Source: Rhizobium gallicum bv. gallicum R602sp (GTDB lineage: Bacteria > Pseudomonadota > Alphaproteobacteria > Rhizobiales > Rhizobiaceae). From it: DNA of 64,000 nucleotides. Shown here piece by piece: positions 12,801 through 34,140 of the stretch (positions are counted from its first letter, which is position 1; each line of letters opens with the position of its first letter). The notes below the pieces were generated by a model that ran no database searches, was not told where the DNA came from, and saw only the letters and a program-made list of their open reading frames with translations. The translations under genes and the position numbers were made by a program. The stretch is taken from the NCBI RefSeq assembly GCF_000816845.1, contig NZ_CP006877.1, positions 1,679,501-1,743,500 on the forward strand, written 5' to 3'.

Positions 12801-14234
12801 TCAGGCGCTCTCTGCAAAGGGCGCGCTCTGGCCGAGCCATGCAGCGCAATCGGCAAGCGCGCGCTTGGCAATCAGCTGCCGCTTCAGGATGGTCTTGTCC
12901 TTGCCGCGGAAGCGCTTGACGCCCTCCGGCTTGACGATCGAGCCAGGCTGCAGGTCCGGAAACAGGCCGAAATTGATGTTCATCGGCTGGAAGGAGCGCT
13001 TGCCCGGTTCCTCGTCGGTGACGAGATGCCCGCCGGTGATATGGCCAAGCAGCGAACCCAGAGCCGTGGTCGCCGGCGGCAGCAATACCGCTTCGCCCTT
13101 GCGTTCGGCGGCGGCGAAGCGCCCCGCCATCAGCCCGACGCTGGCGCTTTCGACATAGCCCTCGCAGCCGGTGATCTGGCCGGCAAACCGCAGCCCCGGC
13201 CGCGACTTCAAGGTCAGCGACGGATCGAGCAGCGTCGGCGAATTGATATAGGTGTTGCGGTGCAGGCCGCCGAGGCGGGCGAATTCGGCGTTCTGCAGGC
13301 CCGGGATCATCCGGAAGATTTCCGCCTGTGCTCCGTATTTCAGTTTCGTCTGGAAACCGACCATGTTGTAGAGCGTACCGAGCGCATTGTCCTGACGAAG
13401 CTGCACGACGGCATAGGCTTTGACCGATGGGTTGTGCGCGTTGGTCAGCCCCATCGGCTTCATAGGCCCGTGGCGAAGCGTCTCGCGACCGCGCTCCGCC
13501 ATCACTTCGATCGGCAAGCAGCCGTCGAAATAGGGCGTGCCTTCCCACTCCTTGAAGCCGACGGTGTCACCAGCGATCAGCGCGTCGACGAAGGCATTAT
13601 ACTGCTCCTCGTCCATCGGGCAGTTGATATAGTCCTTGCCGGTGCCGCCGGGACCGACCTTGTCGTAGCGCGACTGATACCAGCAGATATCCATGTCGAT
13701 GCTGTCGCGATAGACGATCGGTGCAATCGCATCGAAGAAGGCAAGCGCGTCCGCACCCGTTTCCTCCTGAATTGCCGCAGCCAGTGACGGCGCCGTCAGC
13801 GGTCCGGTGGCGACGATGGCCAGATCCCACTCCTTCGGCGGCAGCCCGGTCACTTCCTCGCGCACGACGCTGACGAGCGGATGGCCGTTGATCACCTTCG
13901 TCACGGCGTCGGAAAAGGCCTCCCGATCGACGGCGAGCGCCCCGCCCGCTGGAACCTGATGCTTGTCGGCACAGGCCATGATGAGCGAGCCTGCCATGCG
14001 CATTTCGGCGTGGATCACGCCGACGGCATTGCTCGTCGCGTCGTCGGAGCGGAAGGAGTTGGAGCAGACGAGCTCCGCAAGGCCGTCGGTCTTGTGCGCA
14101 TCCGTGCCGCGCACGCCACGCATTTCGTGAAGGACGACCGGCACGCCGGCATTGGCAATCTGCCATGCGGCCTCCGAGCCGGCGAGCCCACCGCCGACGA
14201 CGTGGATAGGGGAATAGGAAGAGGTCTTGTTCAT
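12801..14234 (-). CDS. trmFO: Methylenetetrahydrofolate-tRNA-(uracil-5-)-methyltransferase TrmFO
   Basis: The 477-residue flavoprotein methylates U54 of tRNA using methylenetetrahydrofolate and FADH2. It shows the FAD-binding opening [58 protein letters not shown] and the [20 protein letters not shown] block. Residue count and start are usual for the family. Confidence 0.96.
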
Positions 14235-14506: not shown

Positions 14507-16180
14507 TCATGCCGGCACCAGTTCCGTCGCTCCGCACTCGAATTTTGCCGAAACCCTGCCGGTCTGGTTCCGTCGCGACGTCTTCTGCGGTTTGCTTGCA
14601 GCAACCAGCGCCGCTGCGGCTTGTTCGGTTTCGCTGACGATCCGCCGCAGAGCCTCGCGCGACTTTTCAGCGAATTTCCGCTGCACTGGATTGTCGTAGC
14701 TATATTGCTCGACCATGGCGAAGACCCGTGCAGCCTCCGGCTGGCGGCCTGCCGCCGCCAGTGCCACGCCTTGCTTGTAGTGCGCCTGCGCGTCGTAGGG
14801 CGAGCGTTCGACGATGCGGCCGAAAGTCCTCGCAGCCTCCTCGTAACTGCCGAGCGCGAGTTGCGTGTCTCCAAGACGCAGATAGACCGGAACCGGGTCG
14901 TCGATGCGGCCGACAAGCGCCGTGAAGCCGGCCTCGGCTTCGTGCAGCTTGCCCTTCTCGAACATCAGGCTCGCCAGCCCGAACTGCGCACCCATATGGC
15001 TGGGGACGGTCTCGAGAAGCTGCCGGAACGCCGCTTCGGCAAAAGCTTTGGCGCCGTCGCGGTACATCTGCAGCGCCTGGTCGTAGACGAAGGGGATGCT
15101 GCGGGGATGGATCACGTCACCGAGATTGCGACCGCTGCGCGTGCGGAACAATGTACAGCTGATCCGGCGCTCGTCGGGGCCGAACATGTATTTATAGGGC
15201 TCGTTGCCGCGCAGGAAGTCGTATGTCTTGAATCCGTCCGCGATCGCCCTGCGAATGCAGTAGCCATGCAGGATGAGGCCAGGCGAGGGCGTCTTCCAGG
15301 TCTCGTCGCGGCCGGTGATGTAAAAGAGGATCGACTTCTTCTGCCGGTCGACGATGTTGGCAAGTGCGCCGAGCGGCCGGTCACCGTACCACATCACCGG
15401 CACATCGAGATTGCCGTCCTTGAAGCTGTCCATCAGCAATTGGCGCGTCGCGCCGATCAGCCGTTCGGTGCGTTCCTTGCCCTTCCGCCCGATCCACTTC
15501 GTGCGCCACAGCTCGAAGAGAATATCGAGGTCGCGGTCAATGGTTTCCGGCGTCGCCATCGTGATGCGATAGTCGTCGTCGCTCTCGACCTTGCGCAGGA
15601 AGCGCCGCAGTTTCTGTCGCGTCTGGCTGCTCATCTTCTGTTCCAGATAGTCGTCAAAGCTCGGTGGCAGCGTGACGACCGGGCAGATGCAGTTGTCTAT
15701 GTTCTCGGGATTTTGCGGGGAGCTGTCGCGGAACATCACCTCCGGCCCCTGCAGCGCGCCAACCAGTGCTTCGCGCCGCTGCGGAGGGCCGCTGAAATAT
15801 TCCAGCTTCAGATGCGTCCAGTTCTGCCGTTTCAGATAGGCGGCAAATCCGGCGATCGCGTGCTGCTCATAGTCCGGCTGCGCGATGAAGCCAGTATAGT
15901 CGGCCGAAAAATTGCCGGCCATGATGATTTCGTCGAAAAAGGCGCCTGTCTTCTTGTCATGCTGGGTGGTGACACGCAGAGGAAAGAAGGCGACGTAGGG
16001 AGAGCGATCCTCGCGTTCGCGCAGCGCTAGAATGAACCAGCGTTTGCGATGAAAAAGATAGGACTTGAGCCATATCCAGGACAGGAAGTGCTGCGCATGA
16101 GGATCGTCCATATAGACCCGATCCCAATCATCGCGGACAGCCTCGAAGCCGGCCTCGGTGTCGATCACGTCAATGCGCAT
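14507..16180 (-). CDS. GNAT-fold (CelD/BcsL-like) protein with C-terminal TPR repeats
   Basis: The 557-residue product combines an N-terminal BcsL/FemX-like acetyltransferase region (about 1-345; SRRL-type chemistry is not visible, but DDPHAQHFLSWIWLKSY, SSQTRQKLRRFLRKVE, TPSPGLILHGYCIRRAI and YDFLRGNEPYK are typical) with tetratricopeptide repeats at about 375-510 (AQFGLASLMFEKGKLHEAE, YLRLGDTQLALGSYEEAA, AHYKQGVALAAAGRQPEAA). GGAGGG lies five bases before the ATG at 16180. Family members modify polysaccharides or lipid substrates. It is the last - strand gene downstream of the type I secretion genes and could share their transcript, although 130 bases separate them. Confidence 0.78.
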   Translation of the reverse strand: MRIDVIDTEAGFEAVRDDWDRVYMDDPHAQHFLSWIWLKSYLFHRKRWFILALREREDRSPYVAFFPLRVTTQHDKKTGAFFDEIIMAGNFSADYTGFIAQPDYEQHAIAGFAAYLKRQNWTHLKLEYFSGPPQRREALVGALQGPEVMFRDSSPQNPENIDNCICPVVTLPPSFDDYLEQKMSSQTRQKLRRFLRKVESDDDYRITMATPETIDRDLDILFELWRTKWIGRKGKERTERLIGATRQLLMDSFKDGNLDVPVMWYGDRPLGALANIVDRQKKSILFYITGRDETWKTPSPGLILHGYCIRRAIADGFKTYDFLRGNEPYKYMFGPDERRISCTLFRTRSGRNLGDVIHPRSIPFVYDQALQMYRDGAKAFAEAAFRQLLETVPSHMGAQFGLASLMFEKGKLHEAEAGFTALVGRIDDPVPVYLRLGDTQLALGSYEEAARTFGRIVERSPYDAQAHYKQGVALAAAGRQPEAARVFAMVEQYSYDNPVQRKFAEKSREALRRIVSETEQAAAALVAASKPQKTSRRNQTGRVSAKFECGATELVPA

Positions 16181-16310
16181 GGTCCCCTCCCAATACCCAT
16201 AACACATTCGGGAGGCTTCATTCTAAGGGCAAATGCAGGGCTTCAAATATGCCGTTCGGATGAAAGGTTTGTATTAAATATGATTAGTCGCCGAGGGTTA
16301 GGAGCAGGGG

Positions 16311-16802
16311 CTAAAGCTCGCCGGATACATGCGAGCTTGCGTTGATGAAGCTCCAAAGCGATTGGCTGATCGAGACGATCTCGGCGATCGATTTCTCCAG
16401 CGCCGCAATCTCCTTTTCGTCGAGCTGCTCGACCTTGCCGTAGCTGATTTCCTTGTCGTCCTCGACGAAGCGCATCAGTTGCGTGCCGGAGATCTGGCCC
16501 TTGTCGTCGAAGGAATAGATGCAGTGGTTATACTTGTTGCGCATCTTGGATTCCTTCTTCATGCGCGACATGGCGTGAAGGACGGCCTTGCGGTCTGCTG
16601 CTGGCGTGGAATGCAGCTTAGCGAGGCGCTCGACCAGGTCGATCCTCGCCCGTGTCGTGTTGAGCGTCAGGAACACGACGATCGCCGCGTCCTTCTGGAT
16701 TTTGAGAAGGTGGGCAATGATGTAGATCAGCAGGCTTTCCGTATTGGTCCAGACATAGTTCAGGCGGCCGACCCGCAGCAGCACGTCAGACATAGCCGCC
16801 AT
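16311..16802 (-). CDS. Small helical protein with HEPN-like RxxxxH motif, unknown function
   Basis: The 163-residue protein is predicted to be mainly helical. It contains RNKYNH (an R-x4-H motif) inside a helix-rich stretch preceded by LIYIIAHLL and RARIDLVERLAKL, a pattern resembling HEPN domains. The ATG at 16802 has CGGAGGG eight bases upstream; the frame continues to 16907 without a better site. It lies 86 bases downstream of the HlyD gene on the same strand, so it is probably in the secretion operon. HEPN assignment is an inference from one motif and the helical pattern; a structural role is possible. Confidence 0.65.
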   Translation of the reverse strand: MAAMSDVLLRVGRLNYVWTNTESLLIYIIAHLLKIQKDAAIVVFLTLNTTRARIDLVERLAKLHSTPAADRKAVLHAMSRMKKESKMRNKYNHCIYSFDDKGQISGTQLMRFVEDDKEISYGKVEQLDEKEIAALEKSIAEIVSISQSLWSFINASSHVSGEL

Positions 16803-16887
16803 GAAAGCCTCCCTCCGTGATCCTCTAGTGAAACGATACTTCAGATCGCCGTGAGAGGCTTTTGATTTCTTTTGCTGACTGCTGCCA

Positions 16888-18234
16888 TCAGCGTTCCTTG
16901 AATGCACGCGACATGCTGTCGGTGATCGGTTTCGTCAGATACTCGAAGAAAGTGCGTTCGGATGTCTGGATCAGCACGTCGGCCGGCATGCCAGGCACCG
17001 GATGAAAGCCGTGAACCCGGCTGATCTCGTCGTCGGATATTTGGACACGCACGATATAGACATCCTTCACCTGCTGGCCGGCATTCTCCTCGATCGAGTC
17101 GGCGGAAACGTAGAAGACGTTGCCGTTGAGCACCGGTGTCGTGCGCCGGTTGAGCGCGGAAAGGCGTATGGCCGCCGTCTGGCCCTCATGTAACTGGTCG
17201 ATCGACGTGCGCAGTACCTGCGCTTCGATGATGAGCGGCACATGCGCGGGCAGGATTTCCATGATCGGCTTGCCGGTGGTGATGACGCCGCCTGCGGTGT
17301 GATAATAGCTGCGCACGACGGTGCCGCTGACCGGCGAGCGGATGACCGTGCGCTCGAGGACGCCTGCTGCTTCGCGAACCTGCTCGCGCACGCTGTCGAG
17401 CTCGGATTCGGCGGTTTCCAGCGCGTCGAGTGCGGCCTGCTTATTGGAGTTGACGGCGATGACCGCTTCCTGACGGAACTTGGCGACTTCCGCCTCGCTT
17501 TCATTGAGCTCGCCCGTCAGCCGCGATATATCGCCCAATGCATCGGCCATGGCGCGTTCGATCGCCAGAAGGTCGGTCCTGCGCATATAGCCGACCTTGA
17601 CGAGACGCGCCTTGGAATCGCGCTCTTCGGTCAGAAGAGACAGCTGGCGCTCGAAGGCCTGCCTCTGGCCGTCATATCCCTTGAAGCGGTACTCCAGCGA
17701 TTTGATGTTCTTCTCGATGAGGTTGAGCTGTTCTTCCAGCTTGATCTGCTTGCTGTGGAAAACAACGTTCTGGCTCTGGATGATCGCGTTGACGTCTGGG
17801 TCGCTCGCCTCGGCCATGACGATGTCGGGTATCTTGAAGTGGCGGGCGCCCTGGGCCTCGGCGCGCAGCCGAGCCACGACCGCTTCAAGGCGCAGGCGCC
17901 GCAGCTTCAGCATCCGCTCGTTGGAGAGCGCGGCCGTCGGGTCGAGTGTCACCAGAACATCGCCCTCCTTGACGACATCGCCTTCGCTGACGCTCATTTC
18001 CTTGATGATACCGCCTTCGAGATGCTGCACGATCTTGTTGTTGCCGGTTGCGACGAAGCTGCCCTGCGCGATGATTGCGGAGGCAAGCGGTGCGGTTGCC
18101 GCCCAGAAGCCGAAGCCGCCGAAGGAGGCAAAAAGGACGCCGAGCCCGATGATGCTGTGATAGCGGATGGAGCGCGGCACTTCGCTGTACCATTCGATCG
18201 GGTTGCCGGCCGGTTGCGGTTTTCTACTCACCAT
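16888..18234 (-). CDS. HlyD-family periplasmic adaptor of a type I secretion system
   Basis: The 448-residue membrane-fusion protein has one N-terminal helix (SIIGLGVLFASFGGFGFWAATAPL), a first lipoyl half (VQHLEGGIIKEMSVSEGDVVKEGDVLVTLD), a long coiled-coil hairpin (about 100-280), the second lipoyl half (TVIRSPVSGTVVRSYYHTAGGVI) and a beta-barrel domain ending MPADVLIQTSERTFFEYLTKPI, the classical HlyD/PrtE ending. It links the ABC exporter to an outer-membrane TolC-type channel, which is not encoded in this window. It overlaps the exporter gene by 11 bases. Confidence 0.94.
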   Translation of the reverse strand: MVSRKPQPAGNPIEWYSEVPRSIRYHSIIGLGVLFASFGGFGFWAATAPLASAIIAQGSFVATGNNKIVQHLEGGIIKEMSVSEGDVVKEGDVLVTLDPTAALSNERMLKLRRLRLEAVVARLRAEAQGARHFKIPDIVMAEASDPDVNAIIQSQNVVFHSKQIKLEEQLNLIEKNIKSLEYRFKGYDGQRQAFERQLSLLTEERDSKARLVKVGYMRRTDLLAIERAMADALGDISRLTGELNESEAEVAKFRQEAVIAVNSNKQAALDALETAESELDSVREQVREAAGVLERTVIRSPVSGTVVRSYYHTAGGVITTGKPIMEILPAHVPLIIEAQVLRTSIDQLHEGQTAAIRLSALNRRTTPVLNGNVFYVSADSIEENAGQQVKDVYIVRVQISDDEISRVHGFHPVPGMPADVLIQTSERTFFEYLTKPITDSMSRAFKER

Positions 18235-20488
18235 TGTCGTTACCTTCGATACGCGGCGGCTGCCGGCCGTTATTCTTGGAAAGCGCTTCCATGACCTCGG
18301 TACGCTCGCCGAACATGGCGACGGAGCCCTCCTTCAGAAGCAGGATCTTGTCGACGCACTGAAGCAGGGCGGGGCGCTGCGTGATCGTTACCGTCGTGAT
18401 TCCCTTTTTCTTCGCATGGATAAGGGCACGTGCAAGCGCTGCCTCGCCCTGCGAATCGAGGTTGGAGTTCGGCTCGTCGAGAACGACGAACCTCGGATCG
18501 CCGAAGAACGCACGGGCAAGCGCGATACGCTGTTTCTGGCCGCCGGAAAGCGGAGAACCATCGGCGGCAACGATCGTCTCGTAGCCCTGTGGGAAGCTCG
18601 CGATCAGCTCGTGCACGTCGGCAAGCACGGCCGCCTCGAAGATCTGCTGGTCTTCGACGTCGTCGCGCATGCGCGATATGTTGGCCTTGATCGTACCGGG
18701 AAAGAGCTGAACGTCCTGCGGCAGATAGCCGATGCTTTCGCCGAACTGCCGTTGGTCCCAGTTGCGCAGGTCCATGAGGTCCAGGCGCACGTTGCCGGAA
18801 GTCGGCAGAATCGAGCCGACGAGCATCTTGCCGAGCGTCGTCTTGCCGGAGCCGGAATTGCCGATGATCGCCAGCGATTCGCCCTTCTTCAGCGAGAAGG
18901 AGATGCCGTTCAGGATCACCTTCTTCTGCGGCGGCGGTACGAAGAGAATACGCTCGACATCCAGCCGGCCTTCCGGATTGGGCAGCCGCAGCCGCGGAAA
19001 GTTCAGCGGCGAGGTGATCAGCAGCTGCTTGATTCTGCCGAAGGCAGACGCCGACTTGTTGAACTGCTGCCAGCCTTCGATTGCACCTTCGATCGGCGCC
19101 AGCGCGCGGCCCGAAACGATCGAGGCTGCAATCACCATGCCGCCCGTCATCTCGCCCGAAAGCGACAGATGCGCGCCCCAGCCGAGCAGCGCGACCTGCG
19201 TGATCATGCGGCAGGCCTTCGAGACGCCGGAAAAGACGATGTTCCGATCCTGCGCCGAGACATGCGATTTCAGCGAGCCGGCCGTCTCTCGGCCCCACAT
19301 CTTCACCGCCTCGGGGATCATGGCGAGCGCATTGATGATCTGCGAGTTGCGCGACATGGAATCGAGGTGGAAGTTCGCGCGGCTGAGATAACCGTTCGCC
19401 TCTGCGAACTGCCGCGCCGTGAACTTCTGGTTCAAATAGGCGATGACGAAGAGCACTGCGCAGCAGGTCATAATGATGAGACCGAGATGTGGATGCACCA
19501 GATAGACCACGACGACGAAGAGCGGCATCAGCGGTGCATCGAGAAAGGCGATGAGCGTGCCCGAGGTCAGGAAGGACCGCAACTGCTGCAGATCCTGCAG
19601 CGTCTGGTAGTCCCTGCCGTTGCTGTGCAGCGATGCGCGAGCGGCGGCACTCAGGATCGGCGCCCCGAGTTGCACTTCGAGCTCGACCGCCGTGCGCATC
19701 AGGATGAAGCGCCGGATCGAATCCATGAAGGCCTGCAGGATGACGGCGCCCAGAACGGCAACCGTGAGCATGACCAGCGTGTCGATCGAACGGCTCGTCA
19801 GCACGCGGTCGGAAATCTGGAAGAGATAGAGAGGGATCGCAAGCAGCAATACGTTGATGGCGATCGTGAAGGCCATGACGATGACCATGTTGCGCCGGAC
19901 AGCTGCAATACCCCTTGCGAGGCTAACGGCAAAGTTCACCGGTTCGCTACGCTTGTGGAAGCTGGCGCCGCCACCGCCACCACCGCCGCCACCGCCAAAA
20001 TCGGGGGTCTTGCCGTTGTTGCCGCCGTCGTTGCGCTGGCGGCGCTCGTTCTCCCTGATTGGCCCGCGATTGCCGTCGATCGTCTTGCCGAAGGGAATAG
20101 CGGGATTGGCCTTTGCCTCGCTCTGATCACCCGGCGTCTTGAGCGGTACGACGGGCGTGTCAGGCGTTGTCTTGGCAACGGTTTGCCCGGCCTTCGCCTG
20201 TTCCGTCGACCGCTCGGGACCCGGGATGGCGCGCGAGCCTAGCGGGATCAGCGGGACCGTCTCCTCGGCTGGATTTTCGATCGGCTCGGGGGCTTTTTCG
20301 GCCTTCGGCTCGGCGGGCGAAACGGACTGCGCCGGCGCCGTGCGGTTCTCCGTGAGCTTCCGCAGGCTCGCAACGGCTTCGTCGATCGCCGACATGCAGG
20401 CACCCGTCAGCGTTTCGTCGACGCGGCCGGTACTGCCAAACCTGAGCGAGCGGTCGGCGGAAAGCGTATGTTTTGAAATATGATTCAC
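18224..20488 (-). CDS. Type I secretion ABC exporter (PrtD/PrsD-like), altered H-loop
   Basis: The 754-residue protein has a disordered Pro/Ala/Glu N-terminal extension of about 185 residues including ten consecutive Gly, an ABC transmembrane domain (about 190-475) and a nucleotide-binding domain with Walker A GNSGSGKTT (about 540), signature LSGGQKQRIALARAFF (about 644) and Walker B FVVLDEPNSNLD. The switch His of the H-loop is Gln704 (TITQRPALL). The GTG start at 20488 follows GGGAGA and lies 23 bases after the upstream stop; an ATG at 20395 lacks a ribosome site. It powers export of unfolded substrates across both membranes with the HlyD protein downstream. Confidence 0.93.
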   Translation of the reverse strand: MNHISKHTLSADRSLRFGSTGRVDETLTGACMSAIDEAVASLRKLTENRTAPAQSVSPAEPKAEKAPEPIENPAEETVPLIPLGSRAIPGPERSTEQAKAGQTVAKTTPDTPVVPLKTPGDQSEAKANPAIPFGKTIDGNRGPIRENERRQRNDGGNNGKTPDFGGGGGGGGGGASFHKRSEPVNFAVSLARGIAAVRRNMVIVMAFTIAINVLLLAIPLYLFQISDRVLTSRSIDTLVMLTVAVLGAVILQAFMDSIRRFILMRTAVELEVQLGAPILSAAARASLHSNGRDYQTLQDLQQLRSFLTSGTLIAFLDAPLMPLFVVVVYLVHPHLGLIIMTCCAVLFVIAYLNQKFTARQFAEANGYLSRANFHLDSMSRNSQIINALAMIPEAVKMWGRETAGSLKSHVSAQDRNIVFSGVSKACRMITQVALLGWGAHLSLSGEMTGGMVIAASIVSGRALAPIEGAIEGWQQFNKSASAFGRIKQLLITSPLNFPRLRLPNPEGRLDVERILFVPPPQKKVILNGISFSLKKGESLAIIGNSGSGKTTLGKMLVGSILPTSGNVRLDLMDLRNWDQRQFGESIGYLPQDVQLFPGTIKANISRMRDDVEDQQIFEAAVLADVHELIASFPQGYETIVAADGSPLSGGQKQRIALARAFFGDPRFVVLDEPNSNLDSQGEAALARALIHAKKKGITTVTITQRPALLQCVDKILLLKEGSVAMFGERTEVMEALSKNNGRQPPRIEGNDNGE

Positions 20489-20511
20489 GTAACGTCTCCC
20501 TCTGGCTCCGG

Positions 20512-22536
20512 TTAGGCGACGACGGTTTGCATTACATCGGCCGGTTGAGCCAGCGTCCATGAAAGGTCATGACCTGCGTTGATGACCGCGTCCTCGGATC
20601 CACCAAGCGGCTCGTCCTCCCCGAGGAATGCGATAACTTCATTGGCGAGATGATCGCTGTTCGGCTGTGACTGCGATGTGTCGTGCTCCACGAGGCCCCC
20701 CTGGATCAGGATGGCATCCGAATAGAGCTGGCCGGCAAGGTAGGTCGTCTGGCCGAAGCTGTCATAATCGGTAATCTGCGCGATGTTGACGACCGCATTG
20801 CTGCCCGTATCGATCTTTATATCGGCGTCCTGGTTGTGCTCGAGAATGTTCGATACGGCCTGTGTCACGTCGTCGGAATCGCCAAGGATGCTCACCTGCT
20901 TGATGATGTTCACATCGTAGAGATTGCCGGTGATGTAGAGGACGTTGAGGCCGATATAGCCTTCGAAATTGCCGTCATGCGATAGCCCCGACGGCATCGC
21001 CGCATCGCGGTCCTCGATTGCCTTTTGCGTCTGCACCACATAGTCGGGCATCGCTTCGAAACGGTCGTTTGCGCCGACGTTATGGATGGATGCGAGGTTC
21101 CAGATCAGATTGTTGCCGGATTGCACGGTGGCTCCTGGAGCCCCGTCCTCGGCGCGCACCCAGTCGTTGTCGTAGAGAAGGGCGATCTGCGAAATGACAT
21201 TCATGTCGAGAATGTCGCCGCCGACGATGATCAGGTCGTACTGCATGCCGATGCCGAGGAAGGAGGCAAGGTTGACGGCGGCATTGCCACCTGTCAGCAC
21301 GGTTGCCTCCGAACCGGTCGTCGTTACGGTCATCGTGTCGTTGTCGCTGATGAAGTGATACTGCTCGATCCAGTTCACGAAGGAAACATCGCCTTCGATC
21401 ACGCTGACACGCCATGCGGTCGGAAAGATCGTCTCAGCCGCCGGTTCTGCTGTGTCCGGTTTTCCGTCGTCGTAAGTGCTGCGCTCGAAAATCGCGATGT
21501 TGTTTGCAACGGTCGTCGCGCTATCGTCACGATTGAAGACGGAAGCGATCTCGTCGCGATCGCTGTAGACGTAAAACTGCGAGATCGCATCGATCTGATG
21601 GTAGTTGCCCATCACGGCGGTAAGGGGCGATATGATTGCCGTCTCGGTGATCTCCACCACGTTTGCAAGCACATTCGCGCCTGCGGCCACATCGAGGCTG
21701 TTTTCGCTGCCGCCGTCCTGTTCCACGGGTACGTCGCTTTTCTCAGGCTCCGTGGGCGGCGTTGCGATGCCGCGGTCGGGCATGAAGTCGTCGATCGAAG
21801 GCGCTTCTTCGACGAGCTGACCATTTACATAACTATAAGTACTAATGCCGTCGATATGGTTGTCTGGGAGTACGATGATCTGCGGTTCGCCGCTTTCCGT
21901 CGTCGTGGCGCTGCTCTCGCGCGCCGCCTGGATGTACTCGTGGATATCGTCGGCAATCGCCCGCAGGCCCTCCTGCGTATCGACGCGGTCATAGGAAGAG
22001 AAGGGCGTAAAGGCGTCCGCCTTCTCGCTGAATTCCATGAGGCGGTGTGTGACGAAGCTCGTGTCGCGCAGCTGCGGCTGATCGCCGGTCATATTCAGGT
22101 GGTCGTCGTCGATCAGCATATTCGCCTGGGCGACATGGCTGATGACCGAGCCTGGTCCCTGGAAGACTTCGAGTTCTTCTTCCTCCTCCTCGCCGGGAAG
22201 GTAGATATTGGCCCCGAAGTGTGGAGCGCTGAGATCGCGCGATGCAATCTCGGCCAGCTTCTTCAGGGTCTCTTCGAACACGCCGCCGAAGTGGCGCGGT
22301 TCTGCGTAGTTAATATCGTAGCTGACGGATCGGTAATCGACGCCTGGATCGTAATCTTTCAGCTCAAGGTTCGAAATAAAGGCCGGGCTGAAAGCTTCGT
22401 CCTCGGACAGCGAAGGATCTGCTTCGCGCGGACGGGCGCCGTCCAGGTAATTGCTTCGCATCCGCGCTTCGTCGGTTGCAGCGCCGAATAAGCCGATGAA
22501 ATGGGCAACGATTTCCGAAATCTTCTCTGCATGCAT
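20512..22536 (-). CDS. Large acidic repeat protein of the type I secretion locus
   Basis: The 674-residue protein has no signal peptide or membrane helix and no recognised domain. Its C-terminal 390 residues carry five degenerate copies of a motif, G-[DN]-x4-[ND]-x-I-x-Q followed by D-x-D, at 310-330, 382-402, 439-460, 536-557 and 601-619. These alternate with G-x-N-x3-N units at 286, 416, 473 and 577. The N-terminal 280 residues are acidic and include EEEEEEL. It sits between the low-complexity protein and the exporter on one strand. It could be a second secreted substrate, an adhesin or a cell-surface scaffold; the sequence does not decide. Confidence 0.82.
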   Translation of the reverse strand: MHAEKISEIVAHFIGLFGAATDEARMRSNYLDGARPREADPSLSEDEAFSPAFISNLELKDYDPGVDYRSVSYDINYAEPRHFGGVFEETLKKLAEIASRDLSAPHFGANIYLPGEEEEEELEVFQGPGSVISHVAQANMLIDDDHLNMTGDQPQLRDTSFVTHRLMEFSEKADAFTPFSSYDRVDTQEGLRAIADDIHEYIQAARESSATTTESGEPQIIVLPDNHIDGISTYSYVNGQLVEEAPSIDDFMPDRGIATPPTEPEKSDVPVEQDGGSENSLDVAAGANVLANVVEITETAIISPLTAVMGNYHQIDAISQFYVYSDRDEIASVFNRDDSATTVANNIAIFERSTYDDGKPDTAEPAAETIFPTAWRVSVIEGDVSFVNWIEQYHFISDNDTMTVTTTGSEATVLTGGNAAVNLASFLGIGMQYDLIIVGGDILDMNVISQIALLYDNDWVRAEDGAPGATVQSGNNLIWNLASIHNVGANDRFEAMPDYVVQTQKAIEDRDAAMPSGLSHDGNFEGYIGLNVLYITGNLYDVNIIKQVSILGDSDDVTQAVSNILEHNQDADIKIDTGSNAVVNIAQITDYDSFGQTTYLAGQLYSDAILIQGGLVEHDTSQSQPNSDHLANEVIAFLGEDEPLGGSEDAVINAGHDLSWTLAQPADVMQTVVA

Positions 22537-22628
22537 GACGGCCCCTCCCGTTCAACACGGTGTCTGGCCCGAAAGGCAGCAAACTCATCGATGACGAGCT
22601 ATTCATCTCAGCCGCTTCTCAAGCCACC

Positions 22629-22659
22629 AAACTGCACCGGCGGAATGCCGGTGCAGTTT
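22629..22659 (-). terminator. Perfect intergenic hairpin between the two secreted-protein genes
   Basis: A perfect 13-base inverted repeat (AAACTGCACCGGC and complement) with a 5-base loop lies 24 bases beyond the stop of the low-complexity gene and 92 bases before the start of the repeat-protein gene. On the - strand it is followed by only a short T-poor tract, so it may act as an attenuator or mRNA stabiliser rather than a full terminator. Confidence 0.7.
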
Positions 22660-22683
22660 GTTTGTTTCCGCACTGGTCGGAGG

Positions 22684-23673
22684 TCAGGCTCCAGAGTCGG
22701 CGTCGTCTCCCGCCAGGTTGCCGCCTACGACGCTGCTGTCGAAGGTGTTGGAGAGCAGATTGGCGCCCTGAACGACTTCCAGATGGAAGCCGGAATTGGC
22801 AATGATCGCCGAAGCGTCTGCCGTGCTCGTGCCGGTGATGTCGTCGCCTGCACCGCCTGCCCAGCCGGCACCGTCGATGTCGATGCCTTCCGAGCCGAAG
22901 GCCTTGCCGCCATCCGCTTCGAGATGGTTGCGGGCTCCTTCGTTGTCCATCTTGATGTTCCAGGCACTGTCCTGGTCGGCTAGATGATTGGCCTGGACAG
23001 CGCTGAAGCCGTTGCCGCCAGCACCGAGCGAGCCGTTGAGGATGTTGTCGACATCAAGCGTGAACGAGAAGTTGTCACCGATGTTGAGGTTGCCGCCGGC
23101 GATCCCGAGGTTGTCGAAATCCTTGACGTCTTCAAGAACGGCGAAGTCCGTGTCCGTCTTGTTGAAGCTGTCGGTCGTCGTCGTATTGTGGCTGTTGGTA
23201 TCGGTGATCGTCTTGATATCGGTGTCAGTATCGGTGATCGTCTTGATATCGGTATCGGTAATGGTCTTGATGTCGGTGTCCGTCTTGGTGCTGGTAAACG
23301 TGTCGTTGTCGCTGTAAGACTTGCTGTCGTAGCTCCAGTCGTAATCGGTCTTGACGTCCGTATCAGTGATCGTGGTCGTCTTGGTGTTGGTGATGTTGTC
23401 GTTGTCGCTGTACGACTTGCTGTCGTAGCTCCAGTCGTATGAGTTGTCGCGGTTGTCGCCGTTGTTGGCATCGACATCGATCTTGGAGTCCACGTCTACA
23501 TCGACGCTGCTGTCGCTGTTGTTGCGGTTGTCGCCGTTTGCCACACCGCCGACATAGCCCGTGGAGCCGTCATCTACGTCAGTATCATTGATGGCAGTAT
23601 TGGCGAAGCCGTCGGCAAGTGCGCCGACATTCGTTTCGATCTCGTCGCCACCATTCGGATAATTGTAGCTCAT
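22684..23673 (-). CDS. Low-complexity Asp/Asn/Thr/Ser-rich protein, probable type I secretion substrate
   Basis: The 329-residue acidic protein starts at the ATG at 23673 (GGAGAA seven bases upstream; the frame extends to a TTG at 23688). Residues 45-175 are almost wholly Asp, Asn, Ser, Thr, Lys and Tyr. They include two copies of YDWSYDSKSYSDND (79-92, 111-124) and three of TDTDIKTI (131, 139, 149). Residues 190-329 are Gly/Asp/Asn-rich with GDDITGTSTADAS and GANLLSN. The protein contains no Cys. No N-terminal signal peptide is seen, consistent with C-terminal type I export. It is the first gene of the locus. Assignment as substrate is inference from composition and position. Confidence 0.78.
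   Translation of the reverse strand: MSYNYPNGGDEIETNVGALADGFANTAINDTDVDDGSTGYVGGVANGDNRNNSDSSVDVDVDSKIDVDANNGDNRDNSYDWSYDSKSYSDNDNITNTKTTTITDTDVKTDYDWSYDSKSYSDNDTFTSTKTDTDIKTITDTDIKTITDTDTDIKTITDTNSHNTTTTDSFNKTDTDFAVLEDVKDFDNLGIAGGNLNIGDNFSFTLDVDNILNGSLGAGGNGFSAVQANHLADQDSAWNIKMDNEGARNHLEADGGKAFGSEGIDIDGAGWAGGAGDDITGTSTADASAIIANSGFHLEVVQGANLLSNTFDSSVVGGNLAGDDADSGA
23302..23439 (-). repeat. Pair of 42-bp direct repeats within the low-complexity gene
   Basis: Copies at 23302-23343 and 23398-23439 differ at one base and are offset by 96 bp, exactly 32 codons. They encode the two YDWSYDSKSYSDND blocks. Shorter in-frame repeats encoding TDTDIKTI lie just upstream in coordinate order (about 23205-23283). 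Recombination or slippage between copies would change protein length without breaking the frame. Confidence 0.85.
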
Positions 23674-24541
23674 TTCGCATTTCTCCAAAAAAATTCGGAG
23701 CAGCTTTCGAAATCCCTTTCATCTCAACGGGATTTTGCTCGCGCTTGCTCCGATACTGTTACAGATCGGCAGATGTAAGCACTACCTTGTCACCTGCGTT
23801 TGATGTTCCGGTTTGTAGATCAAACCCTCGTTGAACTGCGCGTTACTAAGTACAAATGCGCAGGTATCCTGATCCGCAATTGTAAGATTGCAGACTTGAT
23901 GCACGTATTTCTTTGAGTTACCCCAGCTAAGGCGCCGCGATACCGCAGACACTAGGTGGTATTCGACGCCTCCCATGTCGCCATTTGGCAACGATGCGAC
24001 TGTGGCCGAGAAAATATTTAGTTGATAGATACCAATTCGGGCTAGCGAATCAGAAATTACTGGAAGCAGCCGGAAGTAATCATGGAAAATAGATCAGCGA
24101 AGCATTCGGGCATCCAGTGGCGCCCGCGCATACTGATTCCGCAGAGGCCGCTGGCCTGGCGTTCCGAAGGTTCAGTTTGCTGGTTTTGCGGCCAGAACGT
24201 TTTTATAAGTAACTTCTTAGTTCGCTGCCAAGAAGGTAAAATACCAAAAATAGTCTGTCGTCTATAATGACACACAAATACCATTTCGAGGCAAAAATAT
24301 TGGAACATATAGCCCACAAGTTAGCTGTACTTACGCCGATACAACCAGAACAATAGGAAATATCACTTTAAATCTGCAAAAACTAACCCATTTGGGCCAT
24401 TTATTTTCGTATCTGTTCATATTACCATAATTAAGAAATGGCTAACTAACTAAGACGGAAATTTTTAGGGCACACCTCTTTGGGTGTTTTCACAGTATCG
24501 CCCAAAGCATCTGTAACGTGTAACGCTATGGGGAGGCGTAA
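23674..24541. promoter_or_regulatory. 868-bp AT-rich region between the secretion locus and its candidate regulator
   Basis: No convincing gene is seen here. The open frames at 23782-23991 and 24057-24317 lack codon bias or a recognisable product. The stretch is distinctly AT-rich compared with both flanks, especially 24220-24470, with a small GC-richer island at 24105-24215. It must hold the promoter of the leftward secretion genes and of the rightward luxR-type gene. Its size suggests long leader RNAs, regulator sites or an acquired segment. Confidence 0.5.
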
Positions 24542-25309
24542 ATGTTCATGACGGCGTCGAAGACGGGGGATGCCGACCAAAGCCGAAAGTTCGGCCCGGC
24601 CGGAGATACAATACTGGTCATTGCAAATGCGGATTTATTCTCCGAATGCCTGGCAGAGGCTTTGGCGAAGAAATTCGCAGGCTGCGAAGTGGTCAGCAAG
24701 GGCTACTCGAAAGCCATGCTGGAAAACGACGCGAATGACGCCAAGCTCGTACTCTTCTATCATATAGCAAGCCCCGAACTGAACGAGGCGCTTCAGGTCG
24801 TGCGGGAAAACCACCCGTCGACGTCGATCGGTCTCGTGGTCGAGGCGATCGACATGCTGGAGCCCTATATAAACCGGCTGGTCGAAGCGCGGGTCATCGA
24901 TGGCGTGCTGCCGCTCAATCTCCGCCTCGACGTGTTCATGGCGGCGGTCGACCTTCTGATGAAGGGCGGCGAGCATTTCCCATCGGCGCTGCTTAACCGG
25001 CTCACGGGCGCACAGCCGGAGAAATCGCTTTACGAGACGAAGTCGGTTGCTGCAGCCGGTGCCGGCACTTTGAGGCTTCGCCAAGGCGATGTCACCGCGC
25101 TCACCACCCGCGAAGTGCAGATCCTGGATCTGATCTGCAAGGGTACGCAGAACAAGATCATCGCCGATGAGCTGCACCTTTCCGAAAACACGGTGAAGGT
25201 TCACGTACGCAACATCTATAAGAAGATGAATGTCCGCAACCGCACTGAAGCCGCTTCACGCTTCTTCAACAATGAAGCCGGCAACGCATCGGGCAGGTGG
25301 CGAAACTAG
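24542..25309 (+). CDS. LuxR-family transcription factor with a pseudo-receiver domain
   Basis: The 255-residue protein has a response-regulator-like N-terminal domain (about 20-150; DTILVIANADLFSECLAEAL onward) and a C-terminal LuxR/GerE helix-turn-helix (LTTREVQILDLICKGTQNKIIADELHLSENTVKVHVRNIYKKM). The position of the phosphorylated Asp reads LVLFYH, so canonical phosphorylation is unlikely. GGGGAGG lies upstream of the ATG. It is divergent from the secretion genes across a large AT-rich gap and could control them or the uxs-type cluster to its right. Confidence 0.85.
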   Translation: MFMTASKTGDADQSRKFGPAGDTILVIANADLFSECLAEALAKKFAGCEVVSKGYSKAMLENDANDAKLVLFYHIASPELNEALQVVRENHPSTSIGLVVEAIDMLEPYINRLVEARVIDGVLPLNLRLDVFMAAVDLLMKGGEHFPSALLNRLTGAQPEKSLYETKSVAAAGAGTLRLRQGDVTALTTREVQILDLICKGTQNKIIADELHLSENTVKVHVRNIYKKMNVRNRTEAASRFFNNEAGNASGRWRN

Positions 25310-26022: not shown

Positions 26023-27042
26023 ATGCGTAGTTTCGTTCCCAACGAAATATGTTCCGGTTATGATAATCTATCGGGCCGGACACCGAAGAAAGTGCTCGTC
26101 AACGGAGGCGCGGGATTCCTCGGCTCCCATCTTTGCGAGCGGCTTCTCAAGGGCGGTCACGAAGTTATCTGTCTGGATAATTTCTCGACCGGCCGCCGAT
26201 CCAACGTCCACCATCTCCGGCCATTTTCACGTTTTCGGATCATCGAGCACGATGTTCGCAGTCCGTTTGACGTGGATGCGGCGCTGATTTTCAACTTCGC
26301 GTCTCCGGCATCTCCGCCCGATTATCAGCGCGATCCGGTTGGAACCTTGCTCACCAATGTGCTCGGCGCCGTCAATGCGCTCGATCTCGCGCGGCGCAAC
26401 GGGGCGACGATCGTGCAGTCCTCGACCTCCGAGGTCTACGGCGATCCGGAGCACAGCCCGCAGCGGGAGAGCTATTGCGGCAACGTCAACCCGGTCGGTC
26501 CGCGTGCCTGCTATGATGAGGGCAAGCGCAGTGCCGAGACGCTGTTCTTCGACTACCATCGAACCTACGGCGTCGATATCCGGGTCGGGCGGATATTCAA
26601 CACCTACGGGCCGCGCATGCGTCCGGATGACGGCCGCGTGGTCTCGAATTTCATCGTCCAGGCGCTGCAGAACAAGAACATTACCATCTACGGCGATGGC
26701 TCGCAGACCCGTTCCTTCTGCTATGTCGACGATCTGATCGAGGGCTTCCTTCGTTTCTCGAACGCCGGGAAGAAATGCACCGGGCCGATCAATCTCGGCA
26801 ATCCGGCCGAAATCCCGGTGCGCCAGCTCGCCGAGGTGATCCGCGAGATGACGAACTCGCGCTCGCGCATCGTTCATCTGCCTCGGGTGACCGATGACCC
26901 GAAACAGCGGCGGCCGGATATCTCGCGGGCACAGGCAAAACTCGGCTGGCAGCCGCGTGTCGCGCTGGAAGTCGGCCTTGGAAGGACGATCGAATATTTC
27001 GAGGCACGTCTTTCCGCGGCAAAGGTAGCGGAGGCCGTATGA
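26023..27042 (+). CDS. UDP-glucuronate decarboxylase-like (UDP-xylose synthase) SDR enzyme
   Basis: The 339-residue extended SDR has the NAD-binding [26 protein letters not shown], the catalytic YDEGK (YxxxK) and the family block [22 protein letters not shown] with [15 protein letters not shown]. These match UDP-xylose synthases, which make UDP-xylose from UDP-glucuronate. It is first in a five-gene operon; the next gene starts one base after its stop and encodes a 4-epimerase that could turn UDP-xylose into UDP-arabinose. The symbol uxs1 would fit if substrate is confirmed. Confidence 0.88.
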
Positions 27043-27043
27043 G

Positions 27044-28027
27044 ATGTCTCCCTACATCATCGTCACGGGTGGTGCCGGCTTCATCGGCAGCCACATCTGC
27101 AAGACGCTGGCCGGCGCGGGGTTCACGCCGGTCGCATATGACAATCTCTCGACCGGACATCAGGATGCCGTTCGCTGGGGTCCGTTGATCGATGCCGACA
27201 TCGCCGATGTCGGTTCCCTGAAAAAGGCGCTCGGCCGGTTCGAGCCGGTATGCGTCATCCATTGCGCGGCGAATGCCTATGTCGGCGAGTCGGTCGCAGA
27301 TCCGCGCAAGTATTATCGCAACAATGTTTCCGGCAGCCTTGCGCTTTTGGAAGCATGCCTGGACCAGCAAGTCGATCGCATCGTCTTTTCGAGCAGTTGC
27401 GCGACCTATGGCATTCCGGCGGCATTGCCGATCCGCGAGGAGATGGTTCAGCTGCCGGTCAATCCATACGGACGCACGAAACTGATCTTCGAAATGGCGC
27501 TGGAGGATTATGCCGCCGCCTATGGCCTTCGTTTCGTGTCGCTGCGTTATTTCAATGCCGCCGGCGCCGATCCGCAGGGCGATCTTGCCGAGCGTCATGA
27601 ACCTGAAACGCATCTCATCCCGCGCGCGTTGCTTGCGGCTGCACACCGTCTGCCGTGCCTGGAGGTTTTCGGCAATGACTACGAGACCGAGGATGGCACC
27701 TGTGTTCGCGATTACATCCATGTCAGCGATCTCGCGCAGGCCCACCTTGCCGCCGTCGACTACCTTGCAAGCGGCGGTGAAACGCTGCGGGTCAATCTCG
27801 GCTCCGGCCATGGCACCTCCGTCGGCGAGATACTGAGCGCCATCCATCGCATCACCGGACACGAGGTTCCCGTACACTACGATATCCGCCGTGCCGGCGA
27901 CCCGCCGGTGCTTTTTGCCGATACCGCACGGGCGCGGGCGGTTCTCGGCTTCACGCCGCAGTTCTCCGACATCGACACGATCATCCGCACGGCGAGCCCG
28001 ACCTTCGGTCTGGAGGTGCGCGCATGA
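27044..28027 (+). CDS. UDP-sugar 4-epimerase (GalE-like; probable UDP-xylose 4-epimerase)
   Basis: The 327-residue SDR enzyme shows GGAGFIGSHICKTLAGAG, CAANAYVGESV, SSSCATYG, the YxxxK catalytic pair in NPYGRTK, and RYFNAAGADP, all GalE-family signatures. On sequence alone it would be called UDP-glucose 4-epimerase; its place after a UDP-xylose-synthase-like gene points to UDP-xylose/UDP-arabinose interconversion. It overlaps the glycosyltransferase gene by four bases (ATGA). Confidence 0.87.
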   Translation: MSPYIIVTGGAGFIGSHICKTLAGAGFTPVAYDNLSTGHQDAVRWGPLIDADIADVGSLKKALGRFEPVCVIHCAANAYVGESVADPRKYYRNNVSGSLALLEACLDQQVDRIVFSSSCATYGIPAALPIREEMVQLPVNPYGRTKLIFEMALEDYAAAYGLRFVSLRYFNAAGADPQGDLAERHEPETHLIPRALLAAAHRLPCLEVFGNDYETEDGTCVRDYIHVSDLAQAHLAAVDYLASGGETLRVNLGSGHGTSVGEILSAIHRITGHEVPVHYDIRRAGDPPVLFADTARARAVLGFTPQFSDIDTIIRTASPTFGLEVRA

Positions 28028-29913
28028 ACGTAGCGCCATTCGTGACCAGACAGAGAAGGGCGACGGCGCCTCGTGCTGCCAGACAGGACGCGCTCGAACC
28101 CATCTTTGCAGGCTGGAGCCGCGCCGCCTACTGGTTCGGCGTCGCCTGCTGGCTCGCCGCGCTTGCCTATTTCTGGACATGGTGGCTGCAGCCCGCCCAT
28201 GTGATCTCGACGCCAGCATTCATCATCACGACGGCGACCGTTGCCTGGGTCACGCTGATCCCGGCCTATTTCATTTTCATCTTCGTCAATGCAAAGCGGA
28301 TGAAGCCTTCGGCAGCCGTCCCCACGGGCCGCGTCGCCATGGTGGTGACCAAGGTGCCGTCCGAGCCCTTCGAGGTAGTGCGGAAGACATTGCTCGCCAT
28401 GCTGGATCAGAAAGGCGTCGAGTTCGACATCTGGCTCGCCGACGAGGATCCGGCGGAAGAGACGAAGCGCTGGTGCGCCCGGCATGGCATCTACATTTCG
28501 ACGCGCAAGGGGGTTGCCGCCTATCACGGGACTGAGTGGCCGCGCCGGACGCGCTGCAAGGAAGGCAACCTCGCTTATTTTTATGATCGCTACGGTTATG
28601 ACCGCTATGATTTCGTGGCGCAGTTCGATGCCGACCATGTACCGGAGCCGACCTATCTGCAGGAAGTCATGAAGCCCTTCGCCGATCCGCGCGTCGGCTA
28701 TGTCTCGGCTCCCAGCATCTGCGATGCGAATGCCGCCGACAGTTGGGCCGCAAGAGGCAGGCTTTACGCCGAGGCAAGCCTCCATGGTTCGCTTCAGGCG
28801 GGTTACAATGACGGCTGGGCCCCGCTCTGCATTGGCTCGCATTATGCCGTGCGCACCGCAGCGTTGCGTCAGATCGGCGGCCTCGGGCCGGAACTTGCCG
28901 AAGATCACTCGACGACGCTGATGATGAATGCCGGCGGATGGCGCGGCGTGCATGCGCTCGATGCGATCGCCCATGGCGACGGCCCGGCGACGTTTGCCGA
29001 TCTCGTCGTCCAGGAATTCCAGTGGTCGCGGAGCCTGGTGACGATCCTGCTGCAATATTCGCGCACTTACGTGCCGAAGCTGCCGCTGAAGCTGAAGTTC
29101 CAGTTCCTGTTTTCGCAGGTCTGGTATCCGCTGTTTTCGGCGTTCATGGCGCTGATGTTCGCCTTGCCGGTCCTGGCCCTGCTGACAGGTCACGTCTTCG
29201 TCGGCGTCACCTATCCGGACTTCCTGCTGCATTTCTCGCCGCTGTCTCTGGTGCTGGTTGCGCTTGCTCTCTTCTGGAGGCGCAGTGCGACTTTCCGGCC
29301 ATATGACGCCAAGCTTTTCGGCTGGGAAGGCATTGCCTTCGTTCTCCTACGCTGGCCGTGGTCGCTTGCCGGAACCCTGGCTGCTCTGCGCGATCACGTC
29401 TCCGGCTCCTTCGTCGATTTCCGCATCACGCCGAAGGGCACGCAAGCGCAGAGGACGCTGCCGGCGCTCGTTCTGCTTCCCTATGTGCTGCTGGCGGGTA
29501 TTTCCCTTGCCGCGATGGTGCTGGCACCTGCCGAAGGCGCTGCCCGCGGCTTTTATATCTTCGCCGGCATCAACGCCGTGATCTATGCCGCGCTGACCAT
29601 GCTGATCGTTGCGCATCACGCACGCGAGAACGGCTTGCCGCTTATGCCCCGCTCACGCGATCTAAGGCTCGTGGCGGCCAGCGCGCTGACGCTTCTTGTC
29701 GCCGGCAGCGGCGAAATCCGCCTGCACGGCCTGAGCAGTCTCGAAGCGCTGTCGCATGGCCAGGACATCGTCAGTTTCACGGAAGCAAAATTCGCAGTCG
29801 CAGGCGCCGGTCTCGGCGGCGGCAAGACGCGGATCGTCAAATTCCGCTTCAAGTGGAATGGGTTCCGGCAGCAGGCTGCCGCAGGATCAACGAGAGTGGA
29901 GCCGAGCGCGTAG
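28024..29913 (+). CDS. Membrane GT2 glycosyltransferase (polysaccharide synthase)
   Basis: The 629-residue processive-type family 2 transferase has two N-terminal membrane helices (about 40-95), a cytoplasmic catalytic domain (DIWLADED, QFDADHVPEP for DxD, LAEDHST for the acidic base, QEFQWSRS in the place of QxxRW) and five or six C-terminal helices. Such enzymes polymerise and extrude polysaccharide. The last 90 residues after the final helices are soluble. The order uxs-uxe-GT2 matches, from memory, the uxs1-uxe-apsS start of the Sinorhizobium arabinose-containing polysaccharide cluster. Confidence 0.88.
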   Translation: MNVAPFVTRQRRATAPRAARQDALEPIFAGWSRAAYWFGVACWLAALAYFWTWWLQPAHVISTPAFIITTATVAWVTLIPAYFIFIFVNAKRMKPSAAVPTGRVAMVVTKVPSEPFEVVRKTLLAMLDQKGVEFDIWLADEDPAEETKRWCARHGIYISTRKGVAAYHGTEWPRRTRCKEGNLAYFYDRYGYDRYDFVAQFDADHVPEPTYLQEVMKPFADPRVGYVSAPSICDANAADSWAARGRLYAEASLHGSLQAGYNDGWAPLCIGSHYAVRTAALRQIGGLGPELAEDHSTTLMMNAGGWRGVHALDAIAHGDGPATFADLVVQEFQWSRSLVTILLQYSRTYVPKLPLKLKFQFLFSQVWYPLFSAFMALMFALPVLALLTGHVFVGVTYPDFLLHFSPLSLVLVALALFWRRSATFRPYDAKLFGWEGIAFVLLRWPWSLAGTLAALRDHVSGSFVDFRITPKGTQAQRTLPALVLLPYVLLAGISLAAMVLAPAEGAARGFYIFAGINAVIYAALTMLIVAHHARENGLPLMPRSRDLRLVAASALTLLVAGSGEIRLHGLSSLEALSHGQDIVSFTEAKFAVAGAGLGGGKTRIVKFRFKWNGFRQQAAAGSTRVEPSA

Positions 29914-33707: not shown

Positions 33708-33830
33708 CAAACCAAAACGCCCACCGGGGGAGGATCCGGTGGGCGTCATGTTGGTGACTGACAACTGGGAGGAGGAGTGTCGTCAGTCTATCGGAGGGCG
33801 CTGGGAGGAGGAGTGCGCTACTCCGAATTT
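33708..33830 (-). ncRNA. Small RNA with three hairpins bearing anti-Shine-Dalgarno loops (alpha-r14/cuckoo-like)
   Basis: On the - strand three consecutive hairpins are seen. Hairpin 1 (33825-33792) has stem CGGAG..GCGC/GCGC..CTCCG. Hairpin 2 (33788-33756) has stem GACTGAC/GTCAGTC. Both display the identical 13-base loop ACTCCTCCTCCCA, with CCTCCTCCC at 33811-33803 and 33775-33767. Hairpin 3 (33746-33717) is an 11-base terminator stem with loop ATCCTCCC followed by a T-rich tail. No reading frame fits. Size (about 120 nt), three-hairpin layout and CCUCCUCCC loops match the alpha-r14 family of rhizobia and the cuckoo RNAs described near DUF1127 genes in Rhodobacter (from memory). The 5' end is an estimate. 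Confidence 0.8.
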
Positions 33831-34140
33831 CGTTGCGGACATCATATCCGCAGGCATCCGGTAAACCGGGCCGGGCTGCCATACCCGCGCTTCTTGATCG
33901 TCAATATAGTATGACTAATGGTTATTTTGCAGTGCAATATTTTCATGGTGGCCATGCGTTTCATGCATGCCTTATCTGCAAGGACTCCATCCTAGCGCGC
34001 TGCTGTTAATGCTCGGTTAATTCCGTACCAAGTTCGCACAGTGAAGTATCTTGAACGGCACAGGCTCGGGAGATTGCGAAAGACGCTGCTCCATCTATAA
34101 GATTGATGGGAAAGCCGCTGGAATCGGCACGGAGGCAGGC
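33831..34140. other. Gene-free stretch upstream of the DUF2157 gene
   Basis: These 310 bases contain no supported gene. They hold the leftward small-RNA promoter and the rightward promoter of the DUF2157 gene; 33895-33955 is AT-rich. Confidence 0.45.

Follow-up and report, generated by a model that had tools for sequence, protein, structure and literature searches.

Type I secretion in rhizobia has been described for PrsDE, which combines a PrtD/AprD-type ATP-binding cassette (ABC) protein with an HlyD-type adaptor and exports NodO, PlyA, PlyB and Rap proteins. According to Krehenbrink and Downie (2008; PMC2275737), Rhizobium leguminosarum 3841 has three AprD-type exporters, PrsDE, ToaDE (RL0072/RL0071) and TobDE (RL0623/RL0622), together with a bacteriocin-type exporter, BltDE. 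At least 13 substrates, encoded in diverse regions of the genome and many of them carrying RTX motifs, are assigned there to PrsDE; toaDE and tobDE are termed "enigmatic". No gene for a known type I substrate was noted within 10 kb of toaDE, and the authors allowed that the cargo might be a peptide or a non-protein compound (PMC2275737). Here we describe a related locus in a 64,000-nucleotide stretch of the Rhizobium gallicum bv. gallicum R602sp genome (C1:1679501-1743500 of a 7.3-Mb genome in four contigs; the whole stretch is called the window below). Reading 5' to 3' on the minus strand, the locus begins with genes for a low-complexity Asp/Asn/Thr-rich protein (the partner) and a 674-residue acidic beta-repeat protein (S674). 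An ABC exporter gene comes next, followed by those for an HlyD-type adaptor and a HEPN-like protein; a LuxR-type gene lies divergently. We propose, with a probability of about 0.72, that these genes form a dedicated type I secretion system, Toa, which exports S674 and probably the partner.

Conservation of the gene set was followed in two samples that share some genomes. The first comprised 79 loci from named genomes, found by a search with S674 (the best 80 of 112 relatives). The second was an even draw of 296 genomes across the family, with that of the window among them, from which 58 loci were fetched. S674 occurred in 73 of the 296 genomes, as 75 copies, and in 33 of 99 genera. The ToaD-type ABC protein (E<=1e-150) was present in the identical 73 genomes, again as 75 copies, and in every case (75/75) its gene immediately followed that of S674 in the same orientation. 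This speaks against a refuting outcome named at the first reading of the sequence, namely that homologues of the two exported-type proteins would be found mostly without the exporter. The HEPN-like gene was present in 74 genomes, the same 73 and one further genome (G436) at a marginal E of 2.4e-4; it lay within 8 kb of 69 of the 75 S674 copies, and for the other six it was found on another contig only.

The individual loci gave a similar picture. Eleven loci of the first sample end too soon downstream and were left out of the downstream counts. The remainder, with at least 4 kb of downstream sequence, had the ABC gene directly downstream in 67 of 68 instances (L083 fails by a long frame alone), the HlyD-type adaptor in 68 of 68, and the HEPN-like gene in 68 of 68, 62 of them downstream. 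A divergent LuxR-type gene accompanied 75 of the 77 loci with enough upstream sequence, the exceptions being L041 and L082, and phmmer detected the partner in 73 of 77; the four that it missed (L082, L084, L085 and L087) each encode a low-complexity protein whose C-terminal motif is, as judged by eye, the same. In the second sample the ABC gene was found at 57 of 58 loci (the exception, L142, is due to frame length), the adaptor at 54 of 54 and the partner, by a position rule, at 53 of 55. Loci with 5 kb on both sides had the HEPN-like gene in 50 of 50 instances, and the LuxR-type gene was recorded in 32 of 50; weak HEPN frames (27-40 bits) near the adaptor in L136, L137, L143 and L165 were taken as chance and stand outside the 50. 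The commonest order in this sample (29/58) places the HEPN-like and LuxR-type genes divergently upstream; the HEPN-like gene therefore shifts in position without leaving the set. Devosia and Rhodobacteraceae retain the set with S674 proteins of ~30% identity, and a Rhodobacteraceae query returned 62 relatives, for none of which the precomputed annotation gave a Pfam domain. Presence is patchy: two of the seven sampled genomes of the window's genus have the set, as do four of 387 in a class-wide draw that includes the window's own. We conclude that the toa genes are inherited as a unit, much more than expected by chance. Two genomes carry two S674-ToaD pairs each (G565, 849 and 593 bits; G615, 573 and 572 bits).

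The ABC protein is of the PrtD type, its TIGR01842 match beginning at residue 218 of the 778-residue open reading frame (ORF), and the adaptor beside it matches TIGR01843 (Table 1). There is no TolC-type gene in the locus; the one TIGR01844 match over the cut-off, at C1:1119356, adjoins another exporter. A genome search of strain 3841 put three PrtD-type genes, and no others, above the cut-off. They are located at 91.5 kb, 671 kb and 3.85 Mb, and the S674 homologue of that strain lies at ~93.8-95.8 kb of the chromosome, that is, at the first of the three. Because the number and order of these genes fit RL0072, RL0623 and RL3658, with the S674 locus first, the window exporter is taken to be the orthologue of toaDE (RL0072/RL0071). 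The sequence-only reading had suggested an undescribed secretion system; that description does not hold for the exporter, known as toaDE since 2008. The published account covers the exporter pair alone, and the tags RL0073 and RL0074 are absent from its text (PMC2275737). We found no description of the surrounding set or its probable cargo in the searchable open-licence literature, and passages of PMC4018554, PMC4696191 and PMC2912261 contain nothing on the set. Unlike PrsDE, Toa has fixed neighbours that lack tandem RTX repeats. The window genome has a single other PrtD-type exporter over the cut-off (G000:C4:1229940-1234565, L002). It adjoins an HlyD-like frame and belongs to the 2.47-Mb contig rather than the 4.13-Mb one.

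S674 is probably a substrate of this exporter. Like type I substrates, it is acidic (net charge -85) and free of cysteine, lacks an N-terminal signal peptide as judged by eye, and ends in a conserved tail. The tail carries hydrophobic residues after an acidic residue, in a strict motif shared by 92 of 137 relatives; it is modelled at low confidence and probably unstructured, and its conservation only suggests an uncleaved type I signal. GGxGxD is absent from the window S674 and occurs at all in two of the 137 relatives. An AlphaFold2 model built from 40 sequences had a mean predicted local distance difference test (pLDDT) score of 68. Within residues 281-620, 25 of 34 ten-residue blocks scored 81-93, and this region was nearly all beta; both ends were low, and 207 of the 674 residues, the last 55 among them, fell below 50. 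The protein contains five copies of Q-x3-h-x-D-x-D and four of G-x-N-x3-N, and repeat models made from one part match other parts (e.g., 412-458 at E 2.6e-5 and 534-557 at E 1e-5).

The partner of the window is 17% Asp, 11% Asn and 12% Thr, free of cysteine, and has a net charge of -47. Its low-complexity tract differs among lineages, being Asp/Asn/Thr-rich in Rhizobium, Asn/Gln-rich in Devosia and Gly-rich in Aquamicrobium and Cognatishimia, and the whole protein ranges from 199 residues in Sinorhizobium meliloti 4H41 (L075) to a 641-residue frame in Cognatishimia. Across both sets, the C-terminal Q motif was found in 125 of 130 relatives and V-x-GAN in 126, the other four having a GAN variant. 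Because the S. meliloti 4H41 protein lacks the low-complexity tract, we judge the tract to be non-essential. Conservation lies in the C-terminal region and not in the tract noted at the first reading. Names attached to the partner in databases, "fibrinogen-binding protein" and "MSCRAMM SdrC", were rejected, as the match scored 25 bits against a cut-off of 2500 and covered only the low-complexity part, residues 35-180. The first reading held that neither protein has RTX nonapeptides. In substance this is so: the window partner has one isolated GGxGxD and no tandem array, and 57 of 130 relatives have at least one GGxGxD, a count in which single motifs and arrays are not told apart. Its broader claim of a compact locus for type I secretion that includes two exported-type, non-RTX proteins is likewise supported.

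S674 and the partner share a motif that, within these loci, is nearly confined to them. Every one of 46 non-redundant S674 proteins carried Q-x3-h-x-D-x-D, with 214 occurrences in total where 200 shuffles gave a mean of 3.5. All 28 non-redundant partners carried it as well (28 occurrences against a shuffle mean of 0.9), and a single occurrence was counted among 103 other proteins of the same loci. G-x-N-x3-N was found 164 times in non-redundant S674 proteins (shuffle mean, 7.8) and merely twofold over shuffles in partners (28 versus 11.7). The motifs were picked after the alignments had been viewed, and the shuffle comparison therefore overstates the surprise; their constancy stands. A further "analog" set of eight included two minus-strand frames that are no partners; among the six real ones, four had the Q motif, one lacked its 5' part, and L087 was without the motif. 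Homology over a long stretch was rejected, the profile comparison giving a probability of 0.4% over a 19-column match. Repeat model R1 of S674 (residues 280-330) had 51 matches in partners versus 2 in the other four proteins, with a best E of 0.009; R3 had 25 versus 22, and R6 had 22 versus 57. The claim is therefore limited to the sharing of short motifs and does not extend to common descent.

These features also bear on whether both proteins leave the cell. S674 might be the sole exported protein, and the partner, retained inside the cell or on it, might serve S674 as chaperone, pilot or anchor. In favour of this, the conserved tail with its strict motif is found on S674 and not on the partner, and partner length varies widely while the C-terminal region stays constant. 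The motifs common to the two proteins argue against it, and the window partner is acidic and free of cysteine, as type I substrates are. We regard a retained partner as rather unlikely, and predict, with less assurance than for S674, that the partner too is exported.

In the proposed Toa system, ToaD and ToaE, with a TolC-type channel encoded elsewhere, would move the cargo from the cytoplasm to the outside in one step. The beta repeats, the motif-sharing pair and, weakly, the CsgA and FapC rows of a Foldseek search suggest what might follow: outside the cell, S674 and the partner could fold to give a surface polymer or coat built of stacked beta sheets, in which the D-x-D turns may carry calcium. 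We consider this polymer a tentative proposal, somewhat short of even odds; a surface or matrix role more generally is plausible. CsgA and FapC were the first two Foldseek rows for S674, at E 0.2, a template modelling (TM) score of 0.04 and VIA Z scores of 2.0-2.4, values that, for this predicted model, do not support an amyloid claim. Curli and Fap resemble the Toa candidates in having repeated Q/N-bearing beta units, but they show no significant fold or sequence match to S674, and they are secreted through their own outer-membrane pores rather than by a type I exporter. No known fold could be assigned, since S674 gave no significant PDB match; its profile retrieved no PDB sequence at E<=1, and the best match to a viral model (collagen-like protein, E 0.0025, TM 0.05) was taken as chance.

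Published genetics in strain 3841 bear on this proposal. No ToaDE-dependent secreted protein was detected there, a toaD mutation left biofilm rings, nodulation and the observed secreted proteins unchanged, and combining it with prsD and tobD mutations, two or three at a time, brought out no further phenotype (PMC2275737). This plainly speaks against a product that is abundant, or essential for biofilm, in laboratory culture. It fits an operon that is silent under such conditions, and the LuxR-type gene would then turn the operon on outside standard culture. The same negative result lends itself to another explanation, that ToaDE exports a peptide or non-protein compound, with S674 and the partner serving as accessory proteins that are not exported. 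The constant position of S674 beside the exporter, without exception among the 75 copies, argues against this, and S674 has the size, charge and predicted beta repeats that would suit a protein outside the cell. We consider this explanation improbable.

ToaD itself differs from the related exporters in its N-terminal part. A long stretch precedes the first membrane segment, with a median of 220 residues to the LFQxSDRV anchor (range 46-366, the starts being uncertain). By eye, this extension is rich in Pro and Glu and predicted to be disordered, and a glycine run is frequent in it. Among 72 non-redundant ToaD proteins, the motif h-[DE]-x-[DE]-x-[GS]-P-h was found in 62 and an F-H-K-R-like motif in 66. 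The former was written after the sequences had been viewed, with 5 of 77 left out for want of the anchor; a stricter first version matched 42 of 77. Both motifs are absent from PrsD (a 593-residue frame) and TobD of 3841 and from the second PrtD-type exporter of the window genome. Some other type I exporters bear C39 or C39-like domains at this position, and the ToaD extension may by inference have a docking role. Ten draft contigs (L017, L019, L022, L029, L031, L036, L047, L054, L066 and L081) break off 0.24-0.63 kb past S674, close to the toaD segment encoding the glycine run; this region is perhaps an assembly problem that would hide the operon in drafts.

The HEPN-like protein is an unexpected member of the set. 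The motif R-N-x3-H was present in 64 of 66 non-redundant relatives, and its His in all 66; the protein thus has the Rx4-6H motif of the HEPN superfamily. Its AlphaFold2 model (mean pLDDT 83) is helical with a beta insert, in keeping with the mostly helical prediction common to HEPN ribonucleases. Profile and fold searches gave no HEPN match. For 27 members, no curated HEPN profile matched at E<=1, and the family profile retrieved no PDB sequence at the same threshold; Foldseek and VIA searches of the model listed generic helical bundles and no HEPN entry. The best Pfam match of the family was the PucR-type HTH_30 (6 of 27 members, best E 0.001), the others being stray families, and this match would weakly favour DNA binding instead. 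The name "HEPN-like" given at the first reading is based on R-N-x3-H, and the protein is a candidate member of the superfamily. In the proposed Toa system the protein might act in the cytoplasm, perhaps by cutting or binding the operon mRNA and so coupling cargo supply to export, though we hold this less likely than not.

Toxins and defence genes often carry HEPN motifs, which raises the question of whether the cargo, rather than being structural, acts as an effector against competitors or on a host, with the HEPN-like protein as its immunity protein or a linked toxin. The patchy presence of toa among genomes is compatible with such a role, and the 2008 study suggests a bacteriocin role for bltDE, an exporter with large neighbours (PMC2275737). 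Several results stand in the way. At E<=1, Pfam gave no match for the window S674, partner or HEPN-like protein, and a search for a toxin or enzyme domain in S674 with 40 diverse relatives gave a few stray matches (best E 0.02). Mean column identity was highest for the HEPN-like protein, at 50%, against 44% for S674, 37% for the partner and 44% for the regulator (the sequence sets differ), and such conservation is unlike that of immunity proteins. We therefore hold this effector role to be very improbable. The HEPN-like protein is tied to a secretion locus, as the HEPN genes of toxin and defence systems are not; to our knowledge no other HEPN ribonuclease belongs to a secretion locus, so that a true ribonuclease here would be the first known.

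The regulator facing the operon is of LuxR type, as the first reading had it, by its GerE domain (PF00196). No receiver domain was matched at E<=1, and the best NCBIfam matches, the NarL and CsgD models, fell below their cut-offs and ran through the DNA-binding half. A regulator of the cyclic di-GMP-responsive type was considered, since VpsT was among the PDB matches, and rejected because that match covers the DNA-binding half only.

Toa can be viewed as a PrtD-type type I system that is unusual in three respects: its cargo candidates are paired and non-RTX, its exporter has a motif-bearing extension, and a HEPN-like gene is obligate. In its strongest form, Toa would be a distinct alphaproteobacterial family in which the disordered extension recruits the non-RTX pair with its shared Q-x3-h-x-D-x-D units, the pair co-assembles into a new kind of surface polymer, and an obligate cytoplasmic HEPN-type ribonuclease ties cargo translation to export; we think this full version unlikely. 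ToaDE has been without a cargo since 2008. Two candidates can now be put forward, along with a regulator and a constant fifth gene of a kind not expected there, so that the cargo question can be reduced to a simple mutant-and-antibody experiment. Since the set is common in the sampled family, to which many plant- and soil-associated bacteria belong, the product may be widespread and unstudied.

The six genes lie where the sequence-only reading had placed them (Table 1); the starts of the HEPN-like, partner and ABC genes were revised from conserved starts and the bases upstream.

Table 1. Features of the toa locus, in window coordinates
Feature	Position	Strand	Remarks
HEPN-like protein	16311..16802	-	163 residues from conserved start (probable); ORF open to 16907
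HlyD-type membrane fusion protein (ToaE)	16888..18234	-	TIGR01843, 419 bits (cut-off 209)
PrtD-type ABC exporter (ToaD)	18224..20488	-	754 residues from GTG at 20488; TIGR01842, 774 bits (cut-off 510)
S674, 674-residue acidic beta-repeat protein	20512..22536	-	Probable exported substrate
Asp/Asn/Thr-rich low-complexity partner	22684..23673	-	329 residues; conserved C-terminal Q-x3-L-x-D-x-D and V-x-GAN-x3-N
AT-rich intergenic region between operon and divergent regulator	23674..24541		0.87 kb
LuxR/NarL-type DNA-binding regulator	24542..25309	+	GerE PF00196, 77 bits

The adaptor and exporter genes overlap by 11 bases. GC content in the 1-kb blocks covering the intergenic region was 0.52 and 0.50, against 0.58-0.65 in most other blocks. 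The nearest named relatives of the window proteins come from Rhizobium etli 8C-3, R. azibense, R. mongolense and R. sullae.

Beyond the regulator, at 26023-29913 on the plus strand, lie two sugar-nucleotide epimerase/dehydratase genes and a cellulose-synthase-like family 2 glycosyltransferase gene. A functional tie to these sugar genes was rejected: a glycosyltransferase was in the flank of 50 of 79 first-set loci and only 1 of 58 second-set loci, and because of this difference its proximity looks like lineage synteny. On the other side, a GNAT-type acyltransferase-TPR fusion (PF13480 plus TPR; 14507-16207, minus strand) is located between a TrmFO-like gene (12801-14234, assigned by eye) and the toa operon, and a relative of this fusion lies near the toa locus in 42 of the 79 first-set loci, including two from Devosia. 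Farther along the window, the alphaproteobacterial small RNA ar14 (RF02344, 103 bits) is encoded at 33712-33831 on the minus strand.

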